Source: Tragulus kanchil (Eukaryota > Chordata > Mammalia > Artiodactyla > Tragulidae). Taken from it: a stretch of DNA of 64,000 nt. Of this stretch, positions 3,038-64,000 are shown in pieces; position 1 is the stretch's first letter; each line of letters opens with the position of its first letter. Position numbers and translations under genes: made by a program. The notes under the pieces were generated by a model. It did no database searches and was not told where the DNA came from. It worked only from the letters and a program-made list of their open reading frames with translations. The stretch spans positions 174,463,298 through 174,527,297 of the forward strand of contig JAIOJX010000030.1 in the NCBI GenBank assembly GCA_022376925.1, written 5' to 3'.

Positions 3038-3430
3038 CATCAAAGGTTTCTCTAGGGTTCCCCGGATCAAGACTGTTCAGCTTGGGACTCAGCCCTTCCC
3101 TGGGGACTCAGCACTGAAGGAAGATGACAACATGATGCAAGCAAGAAGTGCAGAAAGAAAAATCCTAGAGAGAGAAACAAATGAGGATAGAGAATATATT
3201 GCTTTACCTGGGGAACCGTTTTCAGGAAGGCAATCTTCTCAGCGTCACTGGTGTATTTCCAGGCTGAATTCAATTCTCCTAAGCAAAACTCTCATAAGCA
3301 TCTATTTTTAAGCTGCTTAGTGAAGCACAAAACCACCTAAGACTTAGTCCCTGCTCACAAGAAACTTGCAAAGTTAAAAGAACCAAAACGTATGTTAATC
3401 TTTAAAAATATAATCTTTATATTTTGACCA

Positions 3431-3690
3431 GGCTTCCCTGATGACCAGGCTTCCCTGGCGGGCCAGTGGGTAATGAGTCCACCTTGCAATACAGGCGGCA
3501 GTGGTTTGATCCCTGGCCCAGGAGGATCTCATCTGCCATGGAGTGGCTGGACCAGTGTGTCCAATTACGAGCCAGTACTCTGGAGCGCATGCGCCCAGAG
3601 CCAATGCTCTGCAACAGAAGAGGCCACTGCAATGGGAGGCCCACACAGGCCAAAGAATAAAGATGAACGAAAATAAATAAATAAATAAAA
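3431..3690 (+). mobile_element. CHR-like tRNA SINE (copy 1)
   Basis: Full-length CHR-like SINE from 'aggcttccctggcgggcc' to 'aggccaaagaataaagatg' and an (AAAT)n tail. Its start is doubled: 'ccaggcttccct' occurs at 3429 and again about 17 bases later. The duplicated start is present in both copies of the surrounding 1.1-kb unit. Confidence 0.88.
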
Positions 3691-4019
3691 ACAATGAAAG
3701 AGGTCAAAATTTAAAAAATATATTATACCTATACTTAATAGCTTTGGGAAAAACTAAATAATCACATAGCTATTTAATGATTTTCATTTTCAACTTTTTA
3801 TAGGTATCAACAAAAATAAATATGAACATCTCAAACAAAAATTTGCAAAGGACATATGTGAAAAATTGGAGGAGAAAATACAAGAGGCTAGTAAAAGATG
3901 AGATACATTTTATTTTTAACATTAGCAAAATCTCCTAATGATGCAAACAGTGATAGCATGGTGCTATTATAATATAGTGGGTGATATTTAGTGTGTGATA
4001 ACTCTGTGCCAGATTTACT

Positions 4020-4115
4020 TTGTATATTTTACACTTCTATTTTTCCCAAAATTCTTTAAGGTGGCTATAGCATTTTCCACTTCCAGATGAGGAAACTGAG
4101 GTGGAGAACACAAGA
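4020..4115 (-). mobile_element. MIR fragment, antisense (copy 1)
   Basis: Contains 'ccagatgaggaaactgagg', the reverse of the conserved MIR 3' core, preceded by 'taactctgtgccagattta'. The copy at 5151-5246 is its duplicate. Confidence 0.6.
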
Positions 4116-4561
4116 CACACATTTAACATGATGGTTAATTTTATGTGTCAAATTGACTGGACCATGGTGCCCAGATATGTGGTCAAACATCACTCTGGGT
4201 GTTTCTGGGAGGGTGTTTGGGAAAGAAAGGGAAATTTTAATGTTTAAATAGAGTGGGCTTTGAATTGGTATCAGCACTGAAGGAAGATGACAACATGATG
4301 CAAGCAAGAAGTGCAGAAAGAAAAATCCTAGAGGCATTTAAAATTTTACGGGATTTTCAGGAGGGCTTCTCAGCGTCACTGGTGTATTTCCAGGCTGAAT
4401 TCAATTCTCCTAAGCAAAACTCTCATAAGCATCTATTTTTAAGCTGCTTAGTGAAGCACAAAACCACCTAAGACTTAGTCCCTGCTCACAAGAAACTTGC
4501 AAAGTTAAAAGAACCAAAACGTATGTTAATCTTTAAAAATATAATCTTTATATTTTGACCA

Positions 4562-4821
4562 GGCTTCCCTGATGACCAGGCTTCCCTGGCGGGCCAGTGG
4601 GTAATGAGTCCACCTTGCAATACAGGCGGCAGTGGTTTGATCCCTGGCCCAGGAGGATCTCATCTGCCATGGAGTGGCTGGACCAGTGTGTCCAATTACG
4701 AGCCAGTACTCTGGAGCGCATGCGCCCAGAGCCAATGCTCTGCAACAGAAGAGGCCACTGCAATGGGAGGCCCACACAGGCCAAAGAATAAAGATGAACG
4801 AAAATAAATAAATAAATAAAA
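4562..4821 (+). mobile_element. CHR-like tRNA SINE (copy 2)
   Basis: Identical to 3431-3690 at an offset of 1131, as part of tandem duplication 1. It is not an independent insertion. Confidence 0.88.
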
Positions 4822-5245
4822 ACAATGAAAGAGGTCAAAATTTAAAAAATATATTATACCTATACTTAATAGCTTTGGGAAAAACTAAATAATCACATAG
4901 CTATTTAATGATTTTCATTTTCAACTTTTTATAGGTATCAACAAAAATAAATATGAACATCTCAAACAAAAATTTGCAAAGGACATATGTGAAAAATTGG
5001 AGGAGAAAATACAAGAGGCTAGTAAAAGATGAGATACATTTTATTTTTAACATTAGCAAAATCTCCTAATGATGCAAACAGTGATAGCATGGTGCTATTA
5101 TAATATAGTGGGTGATATTTAGTGTGTGATAACTCTGTGCCAGATTTACTTTGTATATTTTACACTTCTATTTTTCCCAAAATTCTTTAAGGTGGCTATA
5201 GCATTTTCCACTTCCAGATGAGGAAACTGAGGTGGAGAACACAAG

Positions 5246-5690
5246 ACACACATTTAACATGATGGTTAATTTTATGTGTCAAATTGACTGGACCATGGTG
5301 CCCAGATATGTGGTCAAACATCACTCTGGGTGTTTCTGGGAGGGTGTTTGGGATGAGATTAATGTTTAAATAAGTGGGCTTTGAAAAAAACACATTGGTC
5401 TCCCTGATGAGGGTATCAGGTCATTATTTGAAGATGCCACTATGAACAAAGATGCCTTTGGATTCAAATTGCCCCTCTTCTCTGGTTCCTAACCTGCCAA
5501 CTGATTTCACCTTCTCTCCACTACTGCTTGACTCAGTTCCTCAAAATTCATGTCTTTTGTGCTTGCCCTCTTTCAAACACACATGCTCACTCTCATATAA
5601 ATACACACAAGCACACACAATCCTCCTGGTTCTGTTTCTTCACAGAACTCTAACTCATGCACTTACTATACAGCGGAGCTAAGTTTTGAG
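5246..5690. mobile_element. ancient interspersed repeat, family not assigned
   Basis: The segment opens 'catgatggttaattttatgt' and continues 'gtcaaattgactggaccatg', 'gatatgtggtcaaacatcac' and 'tgagattaatgtttaaata'. I recognise this word order as a widespread mammalian repeat but cannot name it securely. It ends near 'actctaactcatgcactt'. Its first part is duplicated at 4115-4250. Confidence 0.5.
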
Positions 5691-5721
5691 CCCAAATTTT
5701 CTGAGTGTTACACCTCAACGC

Positions 5722-5930
5722 TATGGATTGCCTGGTAGCACAGATGGTAAAGAATTTGCCTGCAAAGCAGGAGACCTAGGTTCCATCCCTGGGTCAGGAA
5801 GATCCCATGGAGAAGGTAATGGTAACCCACTCCAGTATTCTTGCCTGAAAACAATCCCTGGACAGAGGAGCCTGGTGGGCTACAGTCCATCGGGTTACAA
5901 AAGAGGTGGACATGACTGAGTGACTAAGCA
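5722..5930 (+). mobile_element. Bov-tA-type SINE
   Basis: tRNA-like head 'gatggtaaagaatttgcctg' and box-B-like 'aggttccatccctgggtc', then the body 'cagaggagcctggtgggcta' and 'gtggacatgactgagtgac'. It is complete apart from the 5' edge. Confidence 0.87.
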
Positions 5931-12384: not shown

Positions 12385-12720
12385 TATCAACTGCCTCCTC
12401 CAGGTAGAATTCTCCTCCCCTTCATCTTTGCCTGGTGTACTCCTACTCATCCTTCACATCTTGGCATGAACCCAGGTTCCTCAAAGAAGACTTTCAAGTC
12501 CTGAATGGGCTCTTTCTGCCATGTGGTTTTAGAGTATTTCTGTTTTTCCACAGTCATTGTGCATATCACATTTCATGAGCCACTGCTTAACAGTCCATGT
12601 TGGCTGCCTCTCTCTGTCCCTAGGATGTAACTTCCTTAAGGTCAAGGACCATTCTGACCATGCTCACTATGGTATGCTGGGTGCATGCTAAAGCCCTTAT
12701 AGAAGCTTAGCACTGATTCT
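12385..12720 (+). mobile_element. L2 LINE 3' end
   Basis: Shows 'actcctactcatccttcaca', then 'gatgtaacttccttaaggtc' and 'aaggaccattctgaccatgc', matching the L2 3' end (the 'gtaagctccttgagggcagg' equivalent). The 3' part is duplicated at 13627-13796. Confidence 0.65.
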
Positions 12721-13317
12721 GTAATTAGGAAGGAGTGAAAGTATATCTGCTTTTAGTTGTATTAAGCTACACTGAAAATGGGTCTTAGAACTTTCAATTG
12801 TTAACTAAAGGAAAACTGTCACATCATGTTTCCTTGTTTGGTATGTTTCAATGATCATCTCAAAGAGTGATTCCCAGGCTTGAACTCGGACTGCATTACA
12901 TCACTCGCTGTGAAATCTGAGTTATGTAAACTGATGGGGACCTGCATGAAATTTTCTCATTTCCCAAAGCAGAGAGTGATAAAGACATCCTTGTTAACTT
13001 TTAGTCTCTTTCATCAAAGTTAAGGCCTTAAGGAAACAGTCATTTCTAATCCATTTAGTTGTCACTCTGTAATCGAGGATATGGGGATTAAGATTCATAT
13101 AAAGCACTCTGTGAAAGTAGGAGGAGGGAAATTCATGTTCCAGAACACAAAATCCCTGCTCTCATATCAGCTTAAGCTACAGTATATTTTCGGATTGGTG
13201 TCCTGTGGGCTTCAAGACATGGGTGGTAGCTTTCAAGGGCAGGTCCTTCATGATGATCTGCTGAGATGATTCATGACTACACCAAGAAGAGAGTAACAAC
13301 AGTCATGATAGTAACAA

Positions 13318-13560
13318 TAGTAACAGTGATCATTTACAGTACTTCTGTGCCAGATACTGGGCATTGTATGCATTCTATCAATGACTTCTCATTACTCATA
13401 AAGGAAGCTACTCCTGTTATCCCCATTGTACAGATGAGGAAACTAGCTCAGGAAAGACAGAGAGTACCGTACTAACTCAAACCATAGTGTTTTTACTAGA
13501 AATCCTGTGCTCTCAGTACTGTAACAGCTCTCTGCCCTAACTACAAATTTCTCATCTGCT
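13318..13560 (-). mobile_element. MIR SINE, antisense (copy 1)
   Basis: Reversed MIR with 'ctgtgccagatactgggcat', 'atccccattgtacagatgag' and 'gaaactagctcagg', which is the conserved core. Confidence 0.75.
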
Positions 13561-14392
13561 TATGAACACATTCCCCCATGTTTAGGTGTACTCCAAAAGG
13601 GTCCCAAATTTCTGTTTTTCAAAACCAGTCATTGTGCATATCACATTTCATGAGCCACTGCTTAACAGTCCATGTTGGCTGCCTCTCTCTGTCCCTAGGA
13701 TGTAACTTCCTTAAGGTCAAGGACCATTCTGACCATGCTCACTATGGTATGCTGGGTGCATGCTAAAGCCCTTATAGAAGCTTAGCACTGATTCTGTAAT
13801 TAGGAAGGAGTGAAAGTATATCTGCTTTTAGTTGTATTAAGCTACACTGAAAATGGGTCTTAGAACTTTCAATTGTTAACTAAAGGAAAACTGTCACATC
13901 ATGTTTCCTTGTTTGGTATGTTTCAATGATCATCTCAAAGAGTGATTCCCAGGCTTGAACTCGGACTGCATTACATCACTCGCTGTGAAATCTGAGTTAT
14001 GTAAACTGATGGGGACCTGCATGAAATTTTCTCATTTCCCAAAGCAGAGAGTGATAAAGACATCCTTGTTAACTTTTAGTCTCTTTCATCAAAGTTAAGG
14101 CCTTAAGGAAACAGTCATTTCTAATCCATTTAGTTGTCACTCTGTAATCGAGGATATGGGGATTAAGATTCATATAAAGCACTCTGTGAAAGTAGGAGGA
14201 GGGAAATTCATGTTCCAGAACACAAAATCCCTGCTCTCATATCAGCTTAAGCTACAGTATATTTTCGGATTGGTGTCCTGTGGGCTTCAAGACATGGGTG
14301 GTAGCTTTCAAGGGCAGGTCCTTCATGATGATCTGCTGAGATGATTCATGACTACACCAAGAAGAGAGTAACAACAGTCATGATAGTAACAA

Positions 14393-14636
14393 TAGTAACA
14401 GTGATCATTTACAGTACTTCTGTGCCAGATACTGGGCATTGTATGCATTCTATCAATGACTTCTCATTACTCATAAAGGAAGCTACTCCTGTTATCCCCA
14501 TTGTACAGATGAGGAAACTAGCTCAGGAAAGACAGAGAGTACCGTACTAACTCAAACCATAGTGTTTTTACTAGAAATCCTGTGCTCTCCAGTACTGTAA
14601 CAGCTCTCTGCCCTAACTACAAATTTCTCATCTGCT
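14393..14636 (-). mobile_element. MIR SINE, antisense (copy 2)
   Basis: Same element as 13318-13560 at an offset of 1075, differing by a single inserted C ('gctctccagtactg' against 'gctctcagtactg'). Confidence 0.75.
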
Positions 14637-14645
14637 TATGAACAC

Positions 14646-14955
14646 AATTTTTCCATGGTGCATCAACTGTGACTACTGACTTCTTTTTAGAGGGTGATTA
14701 AGAAGATTTTCCTTTATGCTGTTTTTAATGGTAGGTATATTCATGAGTGGTTTTAGATTATACTTTTAAAACAGAAAATTAAGATGTTCTAGGAATAACA
14801 TAAAGAAGTAATACAACAGAGCTGAAATGGGGTAAAACAGGTTTCAGAGACAGTAAAGATTTGTCCTCAACAACTGAGGGGGAGGGAAAGGGGAAGAAGC
14901 GTCCTCATCCAGAATAGGTGGTTTTGCTTCTAATTTTAAAGGCTGCAGTGGCAAC
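14646..14955. other. unassigned non-coding stretch
   Basis: No repeat or coding signature recognised. G-rich near 14878-14900. Confidence 0.45.
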
Positions 14956-15648: not shown

Positions 15649-16174
15649 AAGATTATCAAACGTTGTTAGGTATTTTCCATACAGAACATGGGGATCCTGA
15701 AATACAATGCCTATTAGTTCACATTTAAATTTTAATTAGTCCTTGACATTTTCCAAAGTCCTGTCTTTATCACTGTTGTTTAATGTATATCCAAAGACTA
15801 AGTACCTCCTTAGAAAATGTTTAACCTAACATTAAGAATTTAACATAGGCAGCTACTTGCCCCTCTCCAATCCTCATAAACTTCCTTGTGCAACACAGCA
15901 TTGGCTGTCTCATTTTAGTACATAGCTACATTAACAGAAGGATCTATCCCTTTCAAGTCCCTTAAACCTCTCATTAGATAGAAAAATGCTTTCTATGGAC
16001 AAAAATGTATTGTGCATCTGATATGTGTGATATTTGTCTCCAGGCACTTGTTGGGTGGATGGGGAAGAGGCTGATTCACAAGCAGCTGTTCGGATTAGGA
16101 AACTGAGAGTGGCGTAATCCACCCTAAGAATCCCAGACTATGGAGAGTTGTCCGTGGGACATGGTGTGGGTTCA

Positions 16175-16382
16175 TGGGCATGCTCAGTCACTCAATCATG
16201 TCCGACTCTTTGTGAACCCATGGACTGTAGCCCTCCAAGCTCCTCCGTCCATGGGATTTTCTAGGCAAGAATACTGGAGTGGGTTTCTATTTCCTCCTCC
16301 AGGGGATCTTCCCAAACCATGGATCAAACCTGTGTCTCCTGCATTGCCAAGCAGATTCTTTTCTGCGCCACCAGGGGAGCCC
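16175..16382 (-). mobile_element. Bov-tA-type SINE (copy 1)
   Basis: Reverse orientation: 'gctcagtcactcaatcatgt', 'ctcctccgtccatgggattt' and 'gcgccaccaggggagccc'. Complete. Confidence 0.87.
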
Positions 16383-16865
16383 ATTGTGAGACATGGTGTC
16401 TTTGTGTAAAGGCTGGTTCCTGCAGCCAGAAGGAGACATGTTCATGAGGAAGAATCAGAGAAATTAAAAATGACTATTCACGTGCACCACTATGTGAGCA
16501 AGCCCCCAAAGCAGTAGTAACTGTCAGACGCCCTGGAGAGATAAAGCAGGGCAATGCCTGATGAACTCTGTGAGTGGTCTCCCTGCACATTCCCCATTCC
16601 AGAGGACCCTGATCAGCACAGGTGCAAAGACAAAGGACTGACAGATCCATTTAAAACAACAGACACAGAGTCCTTGTAGCCAATGGGGAGATGTTTCCAA
16701 TTTTCAGGCACATTTCAGAAAATCTGGGAAAATGGGTGGCCTGTTGTCATAAGTCACCTGGTTAATTAGCACTTATAACTACTTTCTTAAAAATTTTTGT
16801 TAACATTTTGCCATGTGTGTAAGCCTAGGCTAAGAGATCTTGCAAGATCAAGAATGTGAATAAGG

Positions 16866-16956
16866 GACTTCTCTGGTAGTCCAATGGTTAAGAAATCTAT
16901 GCCTCTACTGCAGAGGGTGTAGGTTTGATCCCTGGTTAGGGAACTAAGATTCTGAT
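16866..16956 (+). mobile_element. tRNA-derived SINE cut by duplication junction
   Basis: Head 'gggacttctctggtagtcca', box-B-like 'aggtttgatccctggttagg'. It stops at 'gattctgatag', where the unit junction falls. The uncut version is at 17966-18095. Confidence 0.8.
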
Positions 16957-17275
16957 AGCCCATTAGGCTTGCTCTCATTTAAACTTCCTTGTGCAACACA
17001 GCATTGGCTGTCTCATTTTAGCATAGCTACATTAACAGAAGGATCTATCCCTTTCAAGTCCCTTAAACCTCTCATTAGATAGAAAAATGCTTTCTATGGA
17101 CAAAAATGTATTGTGCATCTGATATGTGTGATATTTGTCTCCAGGCACTTGTTGGGTGGATGGGGAAGAGGCTGATTCACAAGCAGCTGTTCGGATTAGG
17201 AAACTGAGAGTGGCGTAATCCACCCTAAGAATCCCAGACTATGGAGAGTTGTCCGTGGGACATGGTGTGGGTTCA

Positions 17276-17483
17276 TGGGCATGCTCAGTCACTCAATCAT
17301 GTCCGACTCTTTGTGAACCCATGGACTGTAGCCCTCCAAGCTCCTCCGTCCATGGGATTTTCTAGGCAAGAATACTGGAGTGGGTTTCTATTTCCTCCTC
17401 CAGGGGATCTTCCCAAACCATGGATCAAACCTGTGTCTCCTGCATTGCCAAGCAGATTCTTTTCTGCGCCACCAGGGGAGCCC
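17276..17483 (-). mobile_element. Bov-tA-type SINE (copy 2)
   Basis: Duplicate of 16175-16382 at an offset of 1101, not an independent insertion. Confidence 0.87.
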
Positions 17484-17965
17484 ATTGTGAGACATGGTGT
17501 CTTTGTGTAAAGGCTGGTTCCTGCAGCCAGAAGGAGACATGTTCATGAGGAAGAATCAGAGAAATTAAAAATGACTATTCACGTGCACCACTATGTGAGC
17601 AAGCCCCCAAAGCAGTAGTAACTGTCAGACGCCCTGGAGAGAGAAAGCAGGGCAATGCCTGATGAACTCTGTGAGTGGTCTCCCTGCACATTCCCCATTC
17701 CAGAGGACCCTGATCAGCACAGGTGCAAAGACAAAGGACTGACAGATCCATTTAAAACAACAGACACAGAGTCCTTGTAGCCAATGGGGAGATGTTTCCA
17801 ATTTTCAGGCACATTTCAGAAAATCTGGGAAAATGGGTGGCCTGTTGTCATAAGTCACCTGGTTAATTAGCACTTATAACTACTTTCTTAAAAATTTTTG
17901 TTAACATTTTGCCATGTGTGTAAGCCTAGGCTAAGAGATCTTGCAAGATCAAGAATGTGAATAAG

Positions 17966-18095
17966 GGACTTCTCTGGTAGTCCAATGGTTAAGAAATCTA
18001 TGCCTCTACTGCAGAGGGTGTAGGTTTGATCCCTGGTTAGGGAACTAAGATTCTGATGCTATCTGGTGGTGCGGCAAAAAAAAAAAAAAAAAAAG
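17966..18095 (+). mobile_element. tRNA-derived SINE, complete copy
   Basis: Same element as 16866-16956 but continuing to 'tgctatctggtggtgcggc' and a poly(A) run at 18076-18094. Confidence 0.82.
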
Positions 18096-36000: not shown

Positions 36001-36012
36001 AAACAAATGGAG

Positions 36013-44878: not shown

Positions 44879-44881
44879 CAT

Positions 44882-47250: not shown

Positions 47251-47452
47251 CAACAAATTAAAAAAAAAAAATTCTTATAACAAAACTTTGAAGCAGGTAC
47301 ATTTATTACTTTCATTTAGAGATGAGGAAATTGAAGCATAGGATCTACATAGAAATATATATTCTATTGCATCACAAAATGTTCTCAGTAACACTAGATT
47401 ATTTTCTCCTTTAATAAAATAAAAGTATTCATCTTAAAGATCAGGCTCTCTT

Positions 47453-47710
47453 GGGCTTCCTGGTGGACCAGTGAGTAAGGACACTGCCTTGCAGTGCAAG
47501 GTGTGCTGGTTCTATTCCTGGCCTGGGAAGATCCCACGTGCCGCGGAGCAGCCGGACCGATGTGTCCAACTACTGAGCTGGAGCTCTGGCGTGCGTGCGC
47601 CTGGAGCCAGTGCTCTGCAGGGAGAGAGGCCACTGTGATGGGAAGCCCACACAGGCCAAAGAACAAAGATAGAAATAAATGAAAGACCAACAGAAGCGGC
47701 AAAAAAAAAA
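47453..47710 (+). mobile_element. CHR-like tRNA SINE (copy 1)
   Basis: 'gggcttcctggtggaccagt', 'ggttctattcctggcctggg', 'aggccaaagaacaaagatag' and 'gaccaacagaagcggc'. Confidence 0.9.
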
Positions 47711-47961
47711 GATCAGACTGTCTTGAACAACTTCCCTTTCCTCAGTTAGTATCATTGTTGGTATCATTACAAATTACTTGGTATGCCAATGACAAGGATA
47801 ACATGAATCAACCAACCAATATCACAGTGTAATCTTGTCTCAAGTATTTTCTGACTCTACTTATTTCTTTTCTTAATGGGATTATTTATAGTGCTTATAA
47901 GCTATATTGTTATTTTATAATATTATGTGTAACTCAAGAAAATTATACTTATTTATAGGAT

Positions 47962-48339
47962 AATGCCAAATAATGTCCAAACTACTGCAGCACTGCACTC
48001 ATTTTACATGCTAGCAAAATTATGCTCAAAATCCTCCAAGTTAGGCTTCAACAGTATGTGACCTGAGAACTACCAGATGTACAAGCTGGATTTTCAAAAG
48101 GCAGAGGCACCAGTTCAAACTGTTTGACAGTCTGATGTTCAAACTGTCAACATCTGTTGGATCATTAAAAAGAACAATGAAATTCCAGAAAAACATCTAC
48201 TTCTGCTTCATTGACTAAGCCTTTGACTGTGTGGATCACAACAAGCTGTAGAAAATTCTGAGATGGGAATACCAGAGCACCTTACCTGTCTCCTGTGAAA
48301 CCTGTATGCAAGTCAAGAAGCAACAATTAGAACCAGACT
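47962..48339 (+). mobile_element. BovB LINE, 5' part of remnant (copy 1, cut)
   Basis: BovB ORF2 region from 'tgccaaataatgtccaaact' to 'caattagaaccagact', where the unit junction falls. The full remnant is 49042-50392. Confidence 0.88.
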
Positions 48340-48532
48340 GGAAAACAACGTCAATTATAACAAAACTTTGAAGCAGGTACATTTATTACTTTCATTTAGA
48401 GATGAGGAAATTGAAGCATAGGATCTACATAGAAATATATATTCTATTGCATCACAAAATGTTCTCAGTAACACTAGATTATTTTCTCCTTTAATAAAAT
48501 AAAAGTATTCATCTTAAAGATCAGGCTCTCTT

Positions 48533-48790
48533 GGGCTTCCTGGTGGACCAGTGAGTAAGGACACTGCCTTGCAGTGCAAGGTGTGCTGGTTCTATTCCTG
48601 GCCTGGGAAGATCCCACGTGCCGCGGAGCAGCCGGACCGATGTGTCCAACTACTGAGCTGGAGCTCTGGCGTGCGTGCGCCTGGAGCCAGTGCTCTGCAG
48701 GGAGAGAGGCCACTGTGATGGGAAGCCCACACAGGCCAAAGAACAAAGATAGAAATAAATGAAAGACCAACAGAAGCGGCAAAAAAAAAA
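48533..48790 (+). mobile_element. CHR-like tRNA SINE (copy 2)
   Basis: Duplicate of 47453-47710 at an offset of 1080. Confidence 0.9.
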
Positions 48791-49041
48791 GATCAGACTG
48801 TCTTGAACAACTTCCCTTTCCTCAGTTAGTATCATTGTTGGTATCATTACAAATTACTTGGTATGCCAATGACAAGGATAACATGAATCAACCAACCAAT
48901 ATCACAGTGTAATCTTGTCTCAAGTATTTTCTGACTCTACTTATTTCTTTTCTTAATGGGATTATTTATAGTGCTTATAAGCTATATTGTTATTTTATAA
49001 TATTATGTGTAACTCAAGAAAATTATACTTATTTATAGGAT

Positions 49042-50392
49042 AATGCCAAATAATGTCCAAACTACTGCAGCACTGCACTCATTTTACATGCTAGCAAAAT
49101 TATGCTCAAAATCCTCCAAGTTAGGCTTCAACAGTATGTGACCTGAGAACTACCAGATGTACAAGCTGGATTTTCAAAAGGCAGAGGCACCAGTTCAAAC
49201 TGTTTGACAGTCTGATGTTCAAACTGTCAACATCTGTTGGATCATTAAAAAGAACAATGAAATTCCAGAAAAACATCTACTTCTGCTTCATTGACTAAGC
49301 CTTTGACTGTGTGGATCACAACAAGCTGTAGAAAATTCTGAGATGGGAATACCAGAGCACCTTACCTGTCTCCTGTGAAACCTGTATGCAAGTCAAGAAG
49401 CAACAATTAGAACCAGACTTGGAACAACAGACTGGTTCCAAATTGGCAAAGGCATACGTCAAGGTGGTATATTGTCACCTTGCTTATTTAATTTATTTGC
49501 AGAGTACATCACGCAAAAAGGCCAGTCTGCATGAAGTAGAAACTGAAATCAAGATTGCCAGGAGAAGTATCAATAACCTCAAGTGTGCAGAGGACACCAC
49601 CCTTATGGGAAAAAGTGAAGAGTAACTAAAGAGCTTCTTGATAAAGTTGAAAGAGGAGAGTCAAAAAGCTGGCCTAAAGCTCAGCATTCAGAAAACTAAG
49701 ATCACGGCATCTGGTCCCAACACTTCATAGCAAACAGATGGGCAAACAAGGGAAACAGTGACAAATTTTATTTTATTGGGCTCCAAAATCAATACAGATG
49801 TTGACTGCAGTCATAAATTTTTTTAAAAAAAACACTTGCTCCTTGGAAGAAAAGCTACAACAAACCTAGACAGCATATTAAAAAGCAGAGATATCACTTT
49901 TCCAACCAAAGTCTGTATAGTCAAAGCTATGGCTTTCCTGGTAGTCATGTGAGGATGTGAGAGTCGGACCATAAAGAAGGCTGAGCTCTGAAAAACTGAT
50001 GTGTTTGAACTGTCATGAGGGAGAAGGATCTTCAGTGTACCCTTGGACTGCAAGGAGAACAAATCAGTCAATCCTAAAGGAAATCAACGCTGAATATTCA
50101 TTGGAAGGACTGATGCTGAAGCTGAAGCTTCAATACTTTGGCCACCTGAGAGAAGAGATGATTCACAGGAAAAGACCCTGATGTTGGGGGAAATAGAGGG
50201 CAAAAGGAGAAGGGGACAACAGAGGATGAGATGGTTGGATGGCATCTCTAAGTCAATAAATATGAGCTTTAGCAAGCTCTGGGAAATGGGAAACGGGGGG
50301 ACAGGGAATCCTGGCATGCCACAATCCATGGGGTTGCAAAGGTCAGACACAACTGAGCAACTGAACTATGACCACCATCATTGCAAACACTA
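49042..50392 (+). mobile_element. BovB LINE: decayed reverse transcriptase and 3' end
   Basis: The longest BovB piece in the window, about 1.35 kb and 5'-truncated. Three-frame reading gives reverse transcriptase words in order: a finger/palm segment with 'AFDCVDHNKL' near 49300, then the catalytic-box equivalent 'CAEDTTLMGKSEE' at about 49585-49625, where the usual YADD has become CAED. It ends with the conserved 3' region ('gactgcaaggagaacaaatc', 'gaggatgagatggttggatg', 'gtcagacacaactgagcaac'). The frame 49386-49625 (79 codons) covers part of the palm. Stops and frameshifts and the altered catalytic box show that it is dead. Confidence 0.92.
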
Positions 50393-51164
50393 AGGTCGAG
50401 CATGTGGGAAACAGTTGCTGATTTCAGCTCACTTGCACAGCCAATGGAGATAATAAATACAGGTCTACAATGACCCTGCCCACCTCACAATTTTTCAGCT
50501 GCCTCAGAACATGTGGTTTCATTTTCCTTCTTGTCACTGTTAAAAAACTACATGCATAGCTAAGATAATTCATCTCATAACATGTACCTTCTCAGGCATG
50601 CCATGGGAAATCTACTGGCTTTTCACAAAAAGTACACACTTGAGTATATTTCTAATATGCTTTTTCCCCAGAATTCAAATCCCCATGGATAAACCTAAAA
50701 ATTGAAGAAGTATTTAAAAAACCATCCATGTTAGGTTATGGACTGTATTCAATCAATCATGAATTGTGAGTAAAATGTCAGGTGTTTTTTTTTTTTTTTT
50801 TCATTTTAATAGGGAAGTATTTACTGGTAAAACCCATGTTGTCTGTTTCAAAACACAGCAGTATTGCTGAGCAGAGGACAGGACACAATACCAGAAGTGG
50901 TCACATGTGACAAGTTAGTTTATGGGAAAGAAGTCACTGCAGTGTGAAATTTTCCTATCACTTCTTCCTTAGTCAGCTTCCTTAGCACAGTCCTGATATT
51001 CCTGAAAGAGAGAGACAATATCTTATCCTTCCTATTTAAATCCACAACTTCTGGTCCTCAATGTGCTGCATGGTGTCAAACCCACTGGAAAAGATCACTG
51101 AATGTGGTTCGAGCTTTGAGCCATGACTACTCTGGCAGATCTTTCTATTAAATGAGGACTGGCG
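50393..51164. other. unassigned non-coding stretch (copy 1)
   Basis: No repeat family placed. A poly(T) run at 50787-50802 could be the tail of an antisense retroposed sequence. 50820-51164 follows it without a recognised frame. The duplicate is 51485-52259. Confidence 0.45.
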
Positions 51165-51200
51165 CCCCTAAAAAAATCCAAAAATCAACGCTGATTTGAG

Positions 51201-51484
51201 ACTGATGCTGAAGCTGAAGCTTCAATACTTTGGCCACCTGAGAGAAGAGATGATTCACAGGAAAAGACCCTGATGTTGGGGGAAATAGAGGGCAAAAGGA
51301 GAAGGGGACAACAGAGGATGAGATGGTTGGATGGCATCTCTAAGTCAATAAATATGAGCTTTAGCAAGCTCTGGGAAATGGGAAACGGGGGGACAGGGAA
51401 TCCTGGCATGCCACAATCCATGGGGTTGCAAAGGTCAGACACAACTGAGCAACTGAACTATGACCACCATCATTGCAAACACTA
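51201..51484 (+). mobile_element. BovB LINE 3' end (copy 2)
   Basis: Duplicate of 50109-50392. Only the final 284 bases of the BovB remnant are repeated here. Confidence 0.9.
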
Positions 51485-52259
51485 AGGTCGAGCATGTGGG
51501 AAACAGTTGCTGATTTCAGCTCACTTGCACAGCCAATGGAGATAATAAATACAGGTCTACAATGACCCTGCCCACCTCACAATTTTTCAGCTGCCTCAGA
51601 ACATGTGGTTTCATTTTCCTTCTTGTCACTGTTAAAAAACTACATGCATAGCTAAGATAATTCATCTCATAACATGTACCTTCTCAGGCATGCCATGGGA
51701 AATCTACTGGCTTTTCACAAAAAGTACACACTTGAGTATATTTCTAATATGCTTTTTTTCCCCAAAATTCAAATCCCCATGGATAAACCTAAAAATTGAA
51801 GAAGTATTTAAAAAACCATCCATGTTAGGTTATGGACTGTATTCAATCAATCATGAATTGTGAGTAAAATGTCAGGTGTTTTTTTTTTTTTTTTTCATTT
51901 TAATAGGGAAGTATTTACTGGTAAAACCCATGTTGTCTGTTTCAAAACACAGCAGTATTGCTGAGCAGAGGACAGGACACAATACCAGAAGTGGTCACAT
52001 GTGACAAGTTAGTTTATGGGAAAGAAGTCACTGCAGTGTGAAATTTTCCTATCACTTCTTCCTTAGTCAGCTTCCTTAGCACAGTCCTGATATTCCTGAA
52101 AGAGAGAGACAATATCTTATCCTTCCTATTTAAATCCACAACTTCTGGTCCTCAATGTGCTGCATGGTGTCAAACCCACTGGAAAAAGATCACTGAATGT
52201 GGTTCGAGCTTTGAGCCATGACTACTCTGGCAGATCTTTCTATTAAATGAGGACTGGCG

Positions 52260-53963: not shown

Positions 53964-54243
53964 GGCTTTCCTGGTGGTCCAGTGAGTAAGGACACCGCCT
54001 TGCAGTGCAAGGGGCGCTGGTTCAATCCCTGGCCTGGGAAGATCCCACGTGCTGCGGAGCAGCTGAACCAATGGATGGACTGCATATGCCCAGAGCTGGT
54101 GCTCTGCAACGAGAGAGGCCACTGTGATAGGAGGCCCACACAGGTCAAAGAACAAAGATGGATGGAAATAAATGAAAGACCAATAGAAGTGGCCAAAAAG
54201 AAAAAAGAAAAAAAAAAAGAGGCCAAAAAAAAAAAAAAAAAAA
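53964..54243 (+). mobile_element. CHR-like tRNA SINE
   Basis: 'gggctttcctggtggtccag', 'ggttcaatccctggcctggg', 'gaacaaagatggatggaaat' and 'gaccaatagaagtggccaaa', with a long A-rich tail. About 25 bases of the mid-body are missing ('gaaccaatggatggactgca'). The 170-codon minus-strand frame 53760-54272 is the antisense of this and the preceding SINE. Confidence 0.9.
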
Positions 54244-54896
54244 CCCAGCTGCAAGAAAAGCAAAACACACAAAAAAATTCAATTCATATCACAGAGGACA
54301 AAGAATTCCTATGAGTCACAAGGTAAAACCAACAATAGTATTAAACATGGGTAACCAATATGAACAGCTGGTTCAGAGAAAAACACAGCTATTACACACA
54401 TGAAATGGTTCTTAAAACTTTCTTTTAGAGAAATAAACCTATAAAGAGACAGCAAAATTGTTAGATGGAATATGATACAATTTAGTAAACACCTCATTGG
54501 CAAGACTGTGGAAAACTATTTTTATGTGTGGTTCTTAGAAATACAATGTGAACTCATAATGACTAGAAATTCAGTGACATCATTATCCATCAAAATTGTA
54601 TAATTGATAACTGCTATATCCATCCACCAAGGAACCTCAAGTTTAGCAATGTACTACAAACACACACACACACTCCAATGTGTGAAGTCATGTGCACAAG
54701 ATACTCACTGTAGCAGTATTTATATTAGCAAAACCCTTGAAATAACCTAAACATACATAAATGGGAGAACAGTCAAATCAATTATAGTACATATATACAA
54801 AAGGAATAATTGTCAAATATTCAAAGGAAGAAACTCTATAGCTTCTGAAATGGAAAATTCCCTGAGATATACACTTAAGTATCAAAGACCAGGGCA
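54244..54896. other. unassigned non-coding stretch (copy 1)
   Basis: Has a short (AC)n at 54658-54674 and L1-like words near 54700-54790 ('actgtagcagtatttatatt', 'aacctaaacatacataaatg'), probably an L1 ORF2 3' fragment. The duplicate is 55340-55992. Confidence 0.45.
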
Positions 54897-54898
54897 GG

Positions 54899-55172
54899 GC
54901 TTCCCTGGTGGTCCAGTGGGTAAGGACACCACCTTGCAGTGCAAGGTGCACCAGTTCGATCCCTGGCCTGGGAAGATCCCATGTGCCCCGTAGCGGCTGG
55001 ATCGATGTGTCCAATTACCAAGCCGGAGCTCTGAGTGCATACGCCCAGAGCTGGTGCTCATGACAACAGAGGCCACGCGATGGGAGGCCCATAAGGGCTG
55101 AAGAACAAAGATGGATGAAAATAGATAAATGAAAGACCAATGGAAGTGGCCCGCCCACCCCCCTCCCAAAAA
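54899..55172 (+). mobile_element. CHR-like tRNA SINE (copy 1)
   Basis: Flanked by the target-site duplication 'aagaccagggcagg' at 54885-54898 and 55173-55186. Contains the usual head, and the tail 'gaccaatggaagtggcccgc'. It differs from copy 2 by three small deletions. Confidence 0.92.
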
Positions 55173-55234
55173 AAGACCAGGGCAGGACAGTATTTATACC
55201 ACATATAGGTATATTAATAAAGTACCTATTCTTG

Positions 55235-55311
55235 GGCTTTCCTGGTGGTCCAGTGGTTAAGAATCTGCCTCACAATGCAGGGGACACTGGTCCAATTCTT
55301 GGTCCAGAAAG
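55235..55311 (+). mobile_element. tRNA-derived SINE, long form, cut by junction
   Basis: 'gggctttcctggtggtccag' to 'cttggtccagaaag', then the duplication junction. The complete copy is at 56332-56649. Confidence 0.85.
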
Positions 55312-55994
55312 CCCTATAAGAATGCCAAAAAAAAAAAAACCCAGCTGCAAGAAAAGCAAAACACACAAAAAAATTCAATTCATATCACAGAGGACAAAGA
55401 ATTCCTATGAGTCACAAGGTAAAACCAACAATAGTATTAAACATGGGTAACCAATATGAACAGCTGGTTCAGAGAAAAACACAGCTATTACACACATGAA
55501 ATGGTTCTTAAAACTTTCTTTTAGAGAAATAAACCTATAAAGAGACAGCAAAATTGTTAGATGGAATATGATACAATTTAGTAAACACCTCATTGGCAAG
55601 ACTGTGGAAAACTATTTTTATGTGTGGTTCTTAGAAATACAATGTGAACTCATAATGACTAGAAATTCAGTGACATCATTATCCATCAAAATTGTATAAT
55701 TGATAACTGCTATATCCATCCACCAAGGAACCTCAAGTTTAGCAATGTACTACAAACACACACACACACTCCAATGTGTGAAGTCATGTGCACAAGATAC
55801 TCACTGTAGCAGTATTTATATTAGCAAAACCCTTGAAATAACCTAAACATACATAAATGGGAGAACAGTCAAATCAATTATAGTACATATATACAAAAGG
55901 AATAATTGTCAAATATTCAAAGGAAGAAACTCTATAGCTTCTGAAATGGAAAATTCCCTGAGATATACACTTAAGTATCAAAGACCAGGGCAGG

Positions 55995-56271
55995 GCTTCC
56001 CTGGTGGTCCAGTGGGTAAGGACACCACCTTGCAGTGCAAGGTGCACCAGTTCGATCCCTGGCCTGGGAAGATCCCATGTGCCCCGTAGCGGCTGGATCG
56101 ATGTGTCCAATTACCAAGCCGGAGCTCTGGAGTGCATACGCCCAGAGCTGGTGCTCTGCGACAACAGAGGCCACCGCGATGGGAGGCCCATAAGGGCTGA
56201 AGAACAAAGATGGATGAAAATAGATAAATGAAAGACCAATGGAAGTGGCCCGCCCACCCCCCTCCCAAAAA
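55995..56271 (+). mobile_element. CHR-like tRNA SINE (copy 2)
   Basis: Same insertion as 54899-55172. The target-site duplication 'aagaccagggcagg' lies at 55981-55994 and 56272-56285. Confidence 0.92.
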
Positions 56272-56331
56272 AAGACCAGGGCAGGACAGTATTTATACCA
56301 CATATAGGTATATTAATAAAGTACCTATTCT

Positions 56332-56649
56332 TGGGCTTTCCTGGTGGTCCAGTGGTTAAGAATCTGCCTCACAATGCAGGGGACACTGGTCCAATTCTTG
56401 GTCCAGAAAGATCCCATATGCCACAAAGCAACTAAGCCAGTGTGCCCAAACTATCATGCTCTAGAGCCTGCGAGCTGCAACTACTAAGCCCATGTGCCTA
56501 GAGCCCAAGCTCTGCAACAAAAGAAGTCACCGCAGTAAGAAACCTGTGTACCACAGCAGAGTAATCCCCACTCACCTCAACTAGAGAAAGTCCTCAAATG
56601 AATGAAGACTCAGCAGAGCCAAAAGTACAGACAAATAAATAAAAATTTT
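56332..56649 (+). mobile_element. tRNA-derived SINE, long form, with target-site duplication
   Basis: Complete element from 'gggctttcctggtggtccag' through 'gctctgcaacaaaagaagtc' and 'caactagagaaagtcctcaa' to 'aaataaataaaaatttt'. The exact 14-base target-site duplication 'aaagtacctattct' lies at 56318-56331 and 56650-56663. It is related to 36013-36284. Confidence 0.9.
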
Positions 56650-57349: not shown

Positions 57350-58252
57350 GCAACAGGTAAAATACTGAAAGACATATTATCTAATACAAATCAAAAAAAC
57401 TGGAGTAACTGTATTAATTTTAGACAAAACAGAATTCAGACCAATGAAATGTATCAGTGATAAAGAAGGGAATTACAGAATGATAAAGTGGCCAATACGC
57501 CAAGAAAACATAATAATCTTTTACGTATGTGCATCTAACAGAGTGTGAATTAACATGCGTGAGTTAAGAACTGACAGAAATGAAATAAGCAAGTCCACTA
57601 TTACAGGTGGAGGTGTCAAAACACCTCTCTTTATGTAATTGATAGATCAAGTAGACAGAAAATCAGTTACAATAAAAATGACCTGAACAACACTGTCATT
57701 TAACTTGATCTACCTGACATTTCTAAAATTCAGCATCGAACAAGAGAATAACCATTTTTCTCAGACTCACATGAAATATTCTCATAGACAGACCACACTT
57801 TGAGCGATAATACACACACATATCATACCAAAGTTAAAAGGAAAGAATTTGTACAAAGTTTATTCTCAATCAATAATTAAAGTAGAAATCCACAGCAGAA
57901 AGGGAAGTGAAAAAATTCCCCAATATCTGGAGATTAAACAAGACACTTTTGAATATCGTGTAGGTCAAAGAATTCTCAAGAGGAATTTACAGTTTACCAA
58001 AATTTATAGAATGTGGCAAAAGTGGTGTTAAGGGGTAAATTTATACCATTAAATTTATATATTATAAAATAATAAAGAAAAAAGAAAAACTAAAAAAATA
58101 TAATAATAATAATAAAGAATGAAAATCAATTCTCTCAGCATCTACAACAGGATAATACAGAAATAAGAACCATATACAATGACAGAAGAAAAGAATTGTA
58201 ATAAAATAGTACAGAAATTGAAAATAAGAAAATTAGTGGCGAAAAGCTGGTG
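57350..58252 (+). mobile_element. L1M LINE: ORF2 endonuclease-domain remnant
   Basis: Nucleotide order matches the old L1M ORF2 5' half: 'gaagggaattacagaatgat', 'ccaagaaaacataataatct', 'attgatagatcaagtagaca', 'agacagaccacactttgagc', 'aatatctggagattaaacaa' and 'gtgttaaggggtaaatttat'. The reading frame is broken many times. It runs to 'cgaaaagctggt', where other elements interrupt it. It resumes at 60162. Confidence 0.8.
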
Positions 58253-58596
58253 CTAAAAATAGACCTACCATATGACTTATTAATTCCACTCCCGGGTATG
58301 TACTTGAAAAGATACATGGACCCTATTGTTCGTAGCAGCATTATCTGTAATTGCCAAGATATGGAAGTAACCTAAGTGTCCATCAATAGATGAATGGATG
58401 AAAGATACCATGTACACACACACAGAGACACACACACAATGGAGTATTACTCAGCCATTAGAAGAATGAAATATTGCCATCTGCACCAACACAGATACAC
58501 CTGAAGGTTAATACCCAAGACACAGAGAAAGACAAATAGGGTATGACTTGTATGTGGAATCTAAAAAACACAACAAACTAATGCATGGGGGTGGAG
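58253..58596 (+). mobile_element. L1 ORF2 3' end inserted in L1M (copy 1)
   Basis: 'gacctaccatatgacttatt', 'gccaagatatggaagtaacc', 'tggagtattactcagccatt' and 'gacttgtatgtggaatctaa', the 3' end of an L1 ORF2. The duplicate is 59364-59707. Confidence 0.8.
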
Positions 58597-58599
58597 GGG

Positions 58600-58777
58600 C
58601 TCAGTAGTACTGAATGACCCTTTGAGATCTCATGGACTATAGCCTGCAAGTCTCCTCTGCCCATGGAATTCTCTAAGCAAGAATACTGGCGTGGGTTGTC
58701 ATTTTCTTCTCCAGAGGATCTTCCCAACCTCAGGAGAGAATCTGCATCTCCTGCAGGCTTCCACCTGGGAAGCCCTG
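58600..58777 (-). mobile_element. Bov-tA-type SINE (copy 1)
   Basis: Reverse: 'ctcatggactatagcctgca', 'gcaagaatactggcgtgggt' and 'tccacctgggaagccc'. The duplicate is 59711-59888. Confidence 0.86.
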
Positions 58778-58789
58778 GACACCAATAAT

Positions 58790-58942
58790 CTATTTCTCCT
58801 TGTGAGTTTTGGTAGTTTGTGATGTTTAAGTAATTAATCCATTTAATCTAAGTTATTAAATTTGTAGCGACTGAGTTGTTTATGGCATTCCTTTATTACC
58901 ATTTTAATGTCCCTCGAACTAGTAGTGCTAATTCCTCCTTCA
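58790..58942 (-). mobile_element. L1 ORF2 fragment, antisense (copy 1)
   Basis: 'aattaatccatttaatctaa', 'gagttgtttatggcattcct' and 'taccattttaatgtccctcg' read as antisense L1 ORF2. The duplicate is 59901-60053. Confidence 0.65.
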
Positions 58943-59710
58943 AATTAAAAGGAAAGAATTTGTACAAAGTTTATTCTCAATCAATAATTAAAGTAGAAAT
59001 CCACAGCAGAAAGGGAAGTGAAAAAATTCCCCAATATCTGGAGATTAAACAAGACACTTTTGAATATCGTGTAGGTCAAAGAATTCTCAAGAGGAATTTA
59101 CAGTTTACCAAAATTTATAGAATGTGGCAAAAGTGGTGTTAAGGGGTAAATTTATACCATTAAATTTATATATTATAAAATAATAAAGAAAAAAGAAAAA
59201 CTAAAAAAATATAATAATAATAATAAAGAATGAAAATCAATTCTCTCAGCATCTACAACAGGATAATACAGAAATAAGAACCATATACAATGACAGAAGA
59301 AAAGAATTGTAATAAAATAGTACAGAAATTGAAAATAAGAAAATTAGTGGCGAAAAGCTGGTGCTAAAAATAGACCTACCATATGACTTATTAATTCCAC
59401 TCCCGGGTATGTACTTGAAAAGATACATGGACCCTATTGTTCGTAGCAGCATTATCTGTAATTGCCAAGATATGGAAGTAACCTAAGTGTCCATCAATAG
59501 ATGAATGGATGAAAGATACCATGTACACACACACAGAGACACACACACAATGGAGTATTACTCAGCCATTAGAAGAATGAAATATTGCCATCTGCACCAA
59601 CACAGATACACCTGAAGGTTAATACCCAAGACACAGAGAAAGACAAATAGGGTATGACTTGTATGTGGAATCTAAAAAACACAACAAACTAATGCATGGG
59701 GGTGGAGGGG

Positions 59711-59888
59711 CTCAGTAGTACTGAATGACCCTTTGAGATCTCATGGACTATAGCCTGCAAGTCTCCTCTGCCCATGGAATTCTCTAAGCAAGAATACTGG
59801 CGTGGGTTGTCATTTTCTTCTCCAGAGGATCTTCCCAACCTCAGGAGAGAATCTGCATCTCCTGCAGGCTTCCACCTGGGAAGCCCTG
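59711..59888 (-). mobile_element. Bov-tA-type SINE (copy 2)
   Basis: Duplicate of 58600-58777 at an offset of 1111. Confidence 0.86.
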
Positions 59889-60057
59889 GACACCAATAAT
59901 CTATTTCTCCTTGTGAGTTTTGGTAGTTTGTGATGTTTAAGTAATTAATCCATTTAATCTAAGTTATTAAATTTGTAGCGACTGAGTTGTTTATGGCATT
60001 CCTTTATTACCATTTTAATGTCCCTCGAACTAGTAGTGCTAATTCCTCCTTCATTTT

Positions 60058-60432: not shown

Positions 60433-60668
60433 AACTATGAGACAAAATGATGTAAAGGAAGTAGCATGAAGGCCTGTACTATCATAAGTGAAGAAAATAG
60501 GTATAGTCATTGCTCTGTGAGAAAAGGGGATCCTTTAGGGGTGCTGTGTGATGGTCAGGAGGGATGGGAAGGGGGGGATATACATATGACTAATCTGGGA
60601 ACATACATATCTGTAAACAACAAAACTCTGTAAAAGTTAAAAGTAAAATAAAGGTTTAAAAAAAATTA
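60433..60668 (+). mobile_element. inserted repeat 3' end, family not assigned
   Basis: Its right part, 'gactaatctgggaacataca', 'ctgtaaacaacaaaactctg', then a poly(A) tract, resembles 34276-34415. It splits the L1M copy. From 60602 on it is duplicated at 61761. Confidence 0.55.
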
Positions 60669-62920
60669 ATACACTTCCCCCCCAAAAGCATCAACCCCAA
60701 CAGTTTTACCAGTGAACTCCATCAAATATTTAAGGAAGAGAGGATACCAATTCTTCACCATCTCTTCCAGAAAACAAAAGGACTTTCTAACTCATTCTAT
60801 AAGAAGAAAATTACTCTAATATTAAAAATAAGACAAAGACATTACAAGAAAGGAAAACTAAAGATAAATGTCTCTTGACAATATATTGCAAAAATCCTGA
60901 ACAAAATATTGTCAAACTGAATCAAACTACATATAAAAACAATTATATGCCATGGCCAAGTCATGGCATTTACCCCAGGTATTCAGGACTGGCTCAAGGT
61001 TTTTTTTTTTTTTTTAAATCAATCAGTGTAACCACTGCATTACGAAACTAAAGAAGAAAATTTATTTAATCACATCTGTATAGAGAAAGCATTTGACATA
61101 ATTCAACATCCATTTATTATAAAAACTCTCAGCAAAGTATAAACAGAGGGGAACTTCCTCAACTTGATGAGGAACATTTATAAAAACTGGATACTTAACA
61201 TCATAATTAACAGTGAGAAAATGAACACTTTGTTCCTAAGATCAGGAGCAACACAAGTACATACTGACAATCTGATTTAATATAATACTAGAAGATGTGG
61301 ATAGTGAAGTAAGACAATAAAAGGAAATGAAAGAAAAGGAAAAAATACAAGTACCTGTTTTCACAGATGAGAGATGACATTATTGTCTATGTAGAAAACC
61401 CCAAAGACTCAACCAAAATAGAAACCCAGACAAACCCGTATTTCTTAACAAAGCTCAATGCAGTCTCACATAATCCAGCAATCATGTTTCTGGATAGTTA
61501 CTAAACTGATTTTAAAACTTACTTACGTCCATACAAAACATGCAATGTAAATGTTTTTAGTAGTTTTGTTCGTAATTACTGGAAGCAACTAAAATGTCCC
61601 TTAATAGGTGAATAAACAAACTGTAGTATATCTATACAATGGAATATGATTCAGTAATCTAAAGCAACAATTGACTAAGACATAGTAGAATGACTCCTAG
61701 ATGCATATTGCTAAATGAAAGACACCTATCTGAAATAGCTGTATCTTCTGTTATTCCAATCATACATATCTGTAAACAACAAAACTCTGTAAAAGTTAAA
61801 AGTAAAATAAAGGTTTAAAAAAAATTAATACACTTCCCCCCCAAAAGCATCAACCCCAACAGTTTTACCAGTGAACTCCATCAAATATTTAAGGAAGAGA
61901 GGATACCAATTCTTCACCATCTCTTCCAGAAAACAAAAGGACTTTCTAACTCATTCTATAAGAAGAAAATTACTCTAATATTAAAAATAAGACAAAGACA
62001 TTACAAGAAAGGAAAACTAAAGATAAATGTCTCTTGACAATATATTGCAAAAATCCTGAACAAAATATTGTCAAACTGAATCAAACTACATATAAAAACA
62101 ATTATATGCCATGGCCAAGTCATGGCATTTACCCCGGGGATTCAGGACTGGCTCAAGGTTTTTTTTTTTTTTTTAAATCAATCAGTGTAACCACTGCATT
62201 ACGAAACTAAAGAAGAAAATTTATTTAATCACATCTGTATAGAGAAAGCATTTGACATAATTCAACATCCATTTATTATAAAAACTCTCAGCAAAGTATA
62301 AACAGAGGGGAACTTCCTCAACTTGATGAGGAACATTTATAAAAACTGGATACTTAACATCATAATTAACAGTGAGAAAATGAACACTTTGTTCCTAAGA
62401 TCAGGAGCAACACAAGTACATACTGACAATCTGATTTAATATAATACTAGAAGATGTGGATAGTGAAGTAAGACAATAAAAGGAAATGAAAGAAAAGGAA
62501 AAAATACAAGTACCTGTTTTCACAGATGAGAGATGACATTATTGTCTATGTAGAAAACCCCAAAGACTCAACCAAAATAGAAACCCAGACAAACCCGTAT
62601 TTCTTAACAAAGCTCAATGCAGTCTCACATAATCCAGCAATCATGTTTCTGGATAGTTACTAAACTGATTTTAAAACTTACTTACGTCCATACAAAACAT
62701 GCAATGTAAATGTTTTTAGTAGTTTTGTTCGTAATTACTGGAAGCAACTAAAATGTCCCTTAATAGGTGAATAAACAAACTGTAGTATATCTATACAATG
62801 GAATATGATTCAGTAATCTAAAGCAACAATTGACTAAGACATAGTAGAATGACTCCTAGATGCATATTGCTAAATGAAAGACACCTATCTGAAATAGCTG
62901 TATCTTCTGTTATTCCAATC
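60602..62920. repeat. tandem duplication 15 (period 1159)
   Basis: Copy 1 is 60602-61764 and copy 2 is 61761-62920, overlapping by the 4-base microhomology 'cata'. One difference was found: 'taccccaggtattcagg' against 'taccccggggattcagg' (about 60973 and 62132). Confidence 0.97.
60669..61764 (+). mobile_element. L1M LINE: reverse transcriptase and C-terminal remnant (copy 1)
   Basis: 'agttttaccagtgaactcca', 'tcaccatctcttccagaaaa', 'gacaaagacattacaagaaa', 'aaatcctgaacaaaatattg' and 'agaaagcatttgacataatt' are the ORF2 reverse transcriptase in order. 'cagcaatcatgtttctggat' and 'caatggaatatgattcagta' are the C-terminal part. Poly(T) at 60996-61011 is an oddity inside it. Many stops. Confidence 0.82.
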
Positions 62921-63290
62921 ATATGATATTCTGAACAGGGCAGACCTACAGAGACATTATAAGATCAGTGGTTTCTGATAAAGAAGAAGGGGAGGAACAT
63001 TAGAATGGTGATGCCTAGGAAACTTTTTTAGAGCAGTGAAACTATTCTTCATGATTCCATAATTGTAGATATAAGATAATACACATTTTTCAAAACTCAT
63101 GAACCTTCACAACACAAAGAATGAATGCAATGTATACAGATTTTGATGAAATTATGCAGGAGATCACAGGAAATTTCAGTATGGAATGTAAAATGTGACA
63201 AAACAACCTAACTGTATTATATTTGTATGAAACAACCCTACTAAAGGTGAGCAAGGGGTAAGCTAATGACCTAAGTACCTTTGGAAAAAA
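61828..63290 (+). mobile_element. L1M LINE: reverse transcriptase remnant (copy 2) and 3' UTR
   Basis: The duplicate of 60669-61764 continues without a break into the L1M 3' UTR: 'atatgatattctgaacaggg', 'aagatcagtggtttctgata', 'gcagtgaaactattcttcat' and 'aaacaacctaactgtattat'. This confirms that copy 2 carries the natural right flank. Confidence 0.8.
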
Positions 63291-63560
63291 GCAAGTCCAT
63301 AAAATTAAAGACAAAGGAAACCATGGATGTATAACCACTATACTGTAGCTGGTGAAGTTGTTTCTCAGGGGGACATGGGTTCAAATGATGCTACTACCAG
63401 ACATGCAAAATGAAATTGAATAATTAAGCAAATAGATGCCCAACAATGAGAGTCACATTTTTCCTGGCCAGGATATGAGTTTATAGATTAGCAAAGGAGG
63501 ATAGAATGATCTGTATTTTCATGGGCTATTGTTGGAGATATCCATGTGAGTTGAATTTAA
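63291..63560. other. unassigned non-coding stretch
   Basis: No recognised repeat or frame. It includes 'ttcctggccaggatatgagt' near 63460. Confidence 0.45.
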
Positions 63561-63561
63561 C

Positions 63562-63564
<3 letters not shown>

Positions 63565-63597
<33 letters not shown>
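63565..63597. repeat. (AC)n microsatellite
   Basis: Sixteen uninterrupted AC units, the cleanest dinucleotide repeat in the window. It lies at the 5' edge of a BovB piece. Confidence 0.94.
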
Positions 63598-63598
<1 letters not shown>

Positions 63599-63599
63599 A

Positions 63600-63820
63600 T
63601 TCACTTGGACAGCAAGGACATCAAACCAGTTGATGGTAAAAGGAATCAACCCTGAATATTCACTGGAAGGACGGATGCTAATGTTGAAGCTCCAATACCT
63701 GATGTGAACAGAATGAATCATTGAAAAAGACCCTGATGCTGGGAAAGAATGAAGGCAGAAGGAGAAGAGGGTGGCAGAGGATGAGACGATTGGATGGCAT
63801 CACTGATTTAATGGACATGA
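63600..63820 (+). mobile_element. BovB LINE 3' region, cut by junction
   Basis: 'cttggacagcaaggacatca', 'attcactggaaggacggatg', 'gaggatgagacgattggatg' and 'cactgatttaatggacatga', then an abrupt change to L1 sequence at 63821. The usual BovB 3' end is missing because of the duplication junction. Confidence 0.88.
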
Positions 63821-64000
63821 TTCAGTAATCTAAAGCAACAATTGACTAAGACAAAATTTAAGGAATCTGTAGTATATCTATACAATGGAATATGATTCAG
63901 TAAAAAAAATTGACTAAGACATAGTAGAATGACTCCTAGATGCATATTGCTAAATGAAAGACACCTATCTGAAATAGCTGTATCTTCTGTTATTCCAATC

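Follow-up and report, generated by a model that had tools for sequence, protein, structure and literature searches.

The 64-kb window of Tragulus kanchil DNA analysed here (the whole stretch under study) carries fifteen complete head-to-tail direct duplications of about 1.1 kb each within positions 3108-64000, and a sixteenth that is cut by the window end. Judged by evidence internal to the window, these duplications are, as a class, almost certainly products of assembly. As the specific route, we consider it probable that overlaps between consecutive long-read layout units, probably of the wtdbg2 type, were left unmerged between them. An artefact had been preferred to biology in the first-pass annotation of this DNA, and that preference is borne out by the uniform length of unrelated sequence, the crowding of differences at copy ends, the filler at junctions, one scrambled copy and a minimum spacing between units.

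Extent, periods and content of the duplications

The units are listed below. Each row is based on self-BLAST and base-level alignment and, for the complete units, on the core period, which is the offset common to most 24-mers of a unit pair, and each span covers both copies.

Unit 1: 3108..5399, + strand; junction at about 4270; period 1131; 95.8% identical, with losses near both ends
Unit 2: 12536..14654, + strand; 33 bp of filler at the junction (13575-13607); period 1075; 99.5% identical
Unit 3: 15873..18057, + strand; 17 bp of filler at the junction (16957-16973); period 1101; 99.7% identical
Unit 4: 21496..23677, + strand; period 1082; 99.9% identical (self-BLAST)
Unit 5: 24659..27044, + strand; period 1190; 99.5% identical
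Unit 6: 28848..31054, + strand; period 1097; 99.1% identical (self-BLAST)
Unit 7: 31748..33925, + strand; period 1088; 99.9% identical
Unit 8: 35860..38113, + strand; 35 bp of filler at the junction (36971-37005); period 1143; 99.4% identical
Unit 9: 42700..44897, + strand; period 1098; has 256 bp (44642-44897) in common with unit 10; 99.9% identical
Unit 10: 44642..46857, + strand; junction filler GGGGGG; period 1111; 100% identical
Unit 11: 47238..49462, + strand; period 1080; 99.8% identical (self-BLAST)
Unit 12: 50070..52259, + strand; 10 bp of junction filler; period 1092; 98.7% identical
Unit 13: 54231..56427, + strand; period 1096; four interior differences at relative positions 802-845; 99.5% identical (self-BLAST)
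Unit 14: 57829..60053, + strand; period 1111; 99.9% identical
Unit 15: 60602..62923, + strand; period 1159; 99.8% identical, both differences interior; unit 16 begins before this unit ends
Unit 16: 62777..64000, + strand; second copy truncated where the window stops; in the junction-side copy, a 37-bp block at 63817 is out of place

Self-BLAST identity was 98.7-100% in 14 of the 15 complete pairs, unit 1 being the exception, and matches so long and so similar rule out chance. For the cut unit 16, 62777-62920 aligned with 63864-64000 at 93% over 144 columns, and self-BLAST placed its period at about 1080-1087. The core periods of the 15 complete units lie between 1075 and 1190 bp, with a mean of 1110.3 and an sd of 32.3, and unit lengths range from 1039 to 1193 bp with generous boundaries or from 1011 to 1163 bp with strict ones. 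Of the 24-mer pairs that recur at an offset between 1.0 and 3.5 kb, 15,643 fell at 1050-1199 bp, 317 at 2200-2249 bp and 60 elsewhere. The 317 pairs arise because the neighbouring pairs 9/10 and 15/16 overlap, and tandem-spaced repetition at other periods is almost absent from the 64-kb window over this range of offsets. Repeated sequence makes up about 16.7 of the 64 kb, and the whole window is free of N.

The sixteen head-to-tail duplications of about 1.1 kb that the first-pass annotation had called are all recovered by self-BLAST and base-level alignment, fifteen of them complete and one cut, and the periods given there agree with the core periods to within a few bp. Its statement that the units are alike in length only is upheld as well, in that self-BLAST found likeness among different units to be confined to dispersed repeats. 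A real biological process would have had to make sixteen same-length tandem duplications in 61 kb. Its products could look like the copies seen here, which are whole, directly oriented and almost identical, but the near absence of tandem duplications of any other size argues against it.

Several observations concern the dispersed repeats themselves. Two words from ruminant SINEs had 6 and 21 matches when up to 3 mismatches were allowed, where 0.00 and 0.04 would be expected; duplicated copies enter these counts twice. The DNA is therefore likely to come from a ruminant. A dispersed repeat of about 260 bp forms a cluster of copies at 52920-56266, partly inside unit 13; they share one orientation and are 76-89% alike by self-BLAST, and the cluster looks like several close SINE insertions. 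The sole Rfam match at the gathering score is a tRNA match at 9467-9539 (37.7 bits), which could represent either a tRNA gene or a repeat of tRNA origin. The window holds 35 open frames of at least 110 codons, which were judged by eye; one of them, of 128 codons at 34637-35023, reads like what is presumably a relic of a LINE-1 reverse transcriptase.

Independent ruminant DNA for a control was sought with a search for one SINE-like word, which returned no viral contigs and two genome contigs. One of these, a 3840-bp contig filed under Murimonas intestini (UNVERIFIED_CONTAM), had 78 BLAST pieces in common with the dispersed repeats of the window (contig positions 1003-3049) and, by this likeness, is probably ruminant contamination. 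BLAST of the other gave no pieces matching the window. The 1.1-kb tandem repeat was not found in the contig filed under Murimonas intestini, which at 3840 bp is too short for a real control.

Differences between copies and structure of the junctions

Mutations that follow a genuine duplication are expected anywhere along the unit. With generous boundaries, 58 of the 71 differences between copies were located within 130 bp of a copy end (34 at the start and 24 at the end), in zones that make up about 24% of unit length, and the rate was 14.9 per kb at the ends versus 1.0 per kb inside. Since generous boundaries can produce false end differences, the count was repeated with ends trimmed to exact runs. 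Runs of at least 20 bp left 22 of 35 differences within 130 bp of an end (5.6 vs 1.0 per kb); with runs of 12, 30 and 50 bp the corresponding figures were 32/45, 14/27 and 9/22, the last at 2.3 vs 1.1 per kb. The crowding at the ends shrinks under stricter boundaries and depends on the copy ends chosen, but its direction is kept.

Interior differences amount to 13 events in total, about 1.0 per kb, and 8 of the 15 units have none. Unit 10 is without any difference. Against the crowding at ends, the differences of unit 15 are interior only, and those of units 5 and 13 divide equally. These figures bear on the suggestion that the parental haplotypes of each stretch were set end to end, i.e. a heterotype false duplication, for which adjacent near-identical copies are the known appearance (PMC2864568, PMC9516828). 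Allelic differences would be spread along the unit, which those observed here are not, and the uniform length would be left unexplained, although the difference rate alone is still compatible with low heterozygosity. With so few interior differences and one common length, we regard haplotypes placed end to end as very unlikely.

The region in which units 15 and 16 overlap is present three times, and this permits the copies to be compared. Both copies belonging to unit 15 are identical; in the copy beside the unit 16 junction, unlike the two others, a 37-bp block is shifted ahead of its place. This scrambled copy looks like the decay of consensus at the end of an assembled piece. Frayed ends were also judged by other repeats in the window, scored by best match. 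Matches were available for 15 of 30 ends, with the outer copy preferred at five, the junction-side copy at two (each by 2-3 bits only) and a tie at eight. The test leans in the expected direction, the outer copy being correct, but the numbers are too small for a claim.

Filler of 6-35 bp is present at 5 of the 15 junctions (units 2, 3, 8, 10 and 12). Among the remaining junctions, one has a single extra base and nine of the 15 have 1-19 bp of shared bases, 1-5 bp in seven of these. Shared bases can be cited for a real process but are neutral, because real tandem duplications and chance alignment can both show them. A common breakpoint sequence was not evident by eye in the base-level alignments. 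Filler as a noisy continuation of the flanks was considered and rejected. Nine of the 15 units entered this test, and for the seven with at least 7 bp between their self-BLAST boundaries these bases were set against the sequence that follows the second copy and that which precedes the first; 12 of the 14 comparisons were matched by at least 65 of 500 shuffles, and the other two by 7 and 20 of 500. In most comparisons the filler is thus no more like the flanks than chance allows, which counts against the unmerged-overlap route.

For a real process, the pattern of end-crowded differences, the scrambled junction-side copy, the filler at a third of the junctions (5/15) and the want of an evident common breakpoint sequence are all unfavourable, and we hold such an origin to be extremely improbable. 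It would require that some length-quantised mechanism had, within 61 kb of a mammalian chromosome, duplicated arbitrary stretches of about 1.1 kb in tandem on sixteen occasions and had made its errors mainly near the copy ends. Such a process might be pictured as templated synthesis of fixed reach, and we give it hardly any credence.

The placement of the units relative to each other is also informative. The overlap of units 9 and 10 measures exactly 256 bp, a stretch whose three copies do not differ at all, and that of units 15 and 16 about 147 bp (self-BLAST). The smallest start-to-start distance between units is 843 bp in de-duplicated coordinates, which has P = 0.008 under random placement. 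Distances from junction to junction are irregular, between 1.95 and 9.3 kb. Quantisation of unit spacing in 256-bp bins was not significant (P = 0.13 on 12 of the 15 distances); drift of scale would hide such a signal, and the result weighs neither way.

Unmerged layout units as the probable route

Some fixed parameter must set the common length. In the route that we favour, a long-read assembler would have put the contig together as a chain of consensus units in which successive members have a node of about 1 kb in common. Were the shared node to go unrecognised and unmerged at a junction, both units would be written whole and the node would appear twice in tandem. The assembler wtdbg2, published in 2020 by Ruan and Li, is said to use graph nodes of 1024 bp in 256-bp bins, and neighbouring nodes may reportedly overlap by up to 256 bp. 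Its layout units are said to run from node to node and to be merged over the shared node by wtpoa-cns. The likeness lies in an overlap between neighbours of at most 256 bp, in junction distances of 2-9 kb and, subject to the condition given below, in a unit of about 1 kb. Neither of the two overlaps observed (units 9/10, 256 bp; units 15/16, about 147 bp) exceeds this limit, the smallest start-to-start distance of 843 bp likewise points to a program of this kind, and junctions 1.95-9.3 kb apart would suit units bridged by single long reads.

The agreement in length is conditional. After strict trimming the shortest unit has 1011 bp, less than a 1024-bp node, and unit lengths agree with such a node only if the length of the consensus departs from that of the reads. 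That most are longer than 1024 bp would be understandable if the reads tend, on balance, to fall short of the true sequence, or with ragged node ends. The absence of N between copies fits stitching inside a contig, and the lack of gaps would be explained by merges that failed within the layout or by gap filling at a later step.

Two routes to an artefact had been put forward in the first-pass annotation. The first, unmerged overlaps, stands and is here narrowed to layout units. The second, in which a gap-filling step pasted flanks twice, did not fare as well: a gap filler that pastes both flanks is disfavoured because two duplications per gap would be expected, and one is seen per junction. 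More generally, an overlap could have been left in place or pasted twice at contig or block boundaries by a block-wise polisher, a scaffolder or a gap filler whose overlap or flank parameter was near 1 kb. Such a step would yield the same single length and the same end-crowded differences, and there are good descriptions of false duplications where contigs meet (PMC8081667; PMC2864568). Irregular junction spacing is unsuited to blocks of fixed size, though, and both the 256-bp overlap and the minimum spacing are left unexplained; moreover, the copies are without N between them, whereas gaps are typical according to PMC9516828. We therefore treat another assembly step as possible but rather unlikely.

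With unmerged layout units as the preferred reading, it must be noted that no report of unmerged nodes giving such a pattern was found in the literature searched. While the geometry, the crowding of differences at ends, the filler and the scrambled end are seen directly, we infer that the program was wtdbg2 or similar and that nearly every join in the stretch failed. In extracts of papers that used wtdbg2, on dog (PMC8228171), barley (PMC8290290), human (PMC9668749) and the CSA pipeline (PMC7247394), the artefact is not described.

Relation to known false duplications and consequences

Among the assemblies of the Vertebrate Genomes Project, homotype false duplications at contig boundaries are described, and one set was traced to a bug in FALCON (PMC8081667; PMC9516828). 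Gaps between the copies are typical of false duplications but not required (PMC9516828). The likeness to our case is that adjacent, near-identical copies of single-copy sequence have differences tied to consensus quality. The copies in the window are adjacent and near-identical without haplotype-like differences (98.7-100% in 14/15, and 8/15 without interior differences), and their differences are tied to poor consensus at piece ends (58/71, 22/35 and 9/22, by boundary). An assembly gap between copies is not seen, the window having no N. The homotype duplications of those reports are about as long as reads and often gapped, whereas here one length of about 1.1 kb recurs every 2-9 kb with no N.

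Kelley and Salzberg (2010) examined genomes including that of the cow and described duplicated overlapping contigs, in which the ends of neighbouring contigs overlap unmerged and the overlap appears twice (PMC2864568), which resembles the present case. That text ascribes the duplications to haplotype divergence, with few above 99.5% identity, whereas about half of the units here exceed 99.5% and all are of one length. A contig gap is invisible here and the duplications apparently lie inside one contig, and duplications within one contig are, according to the same authors, rarely mis-assembled (PMC2864568). The present case is of the contig-boundary kind of false duplication, and it is unusual in its uniformity of length and its density.

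If the artefact reading is true, surplus sequence amounts to about 16.7 kb, or 26% of the 64 kb. Should the same apply across the whole assembly, genome size would be inflated, genes broken, exon duplications invented and scans for structural variants misled. Other assemblies can easily be screened for tandem offsets that peak sharply at 1.05-1.2 kb together with end-crowded differences. The duplications are thus to be taken as a warning on data quality and not as new biology, since they are very probably absent from the genome of the animal.
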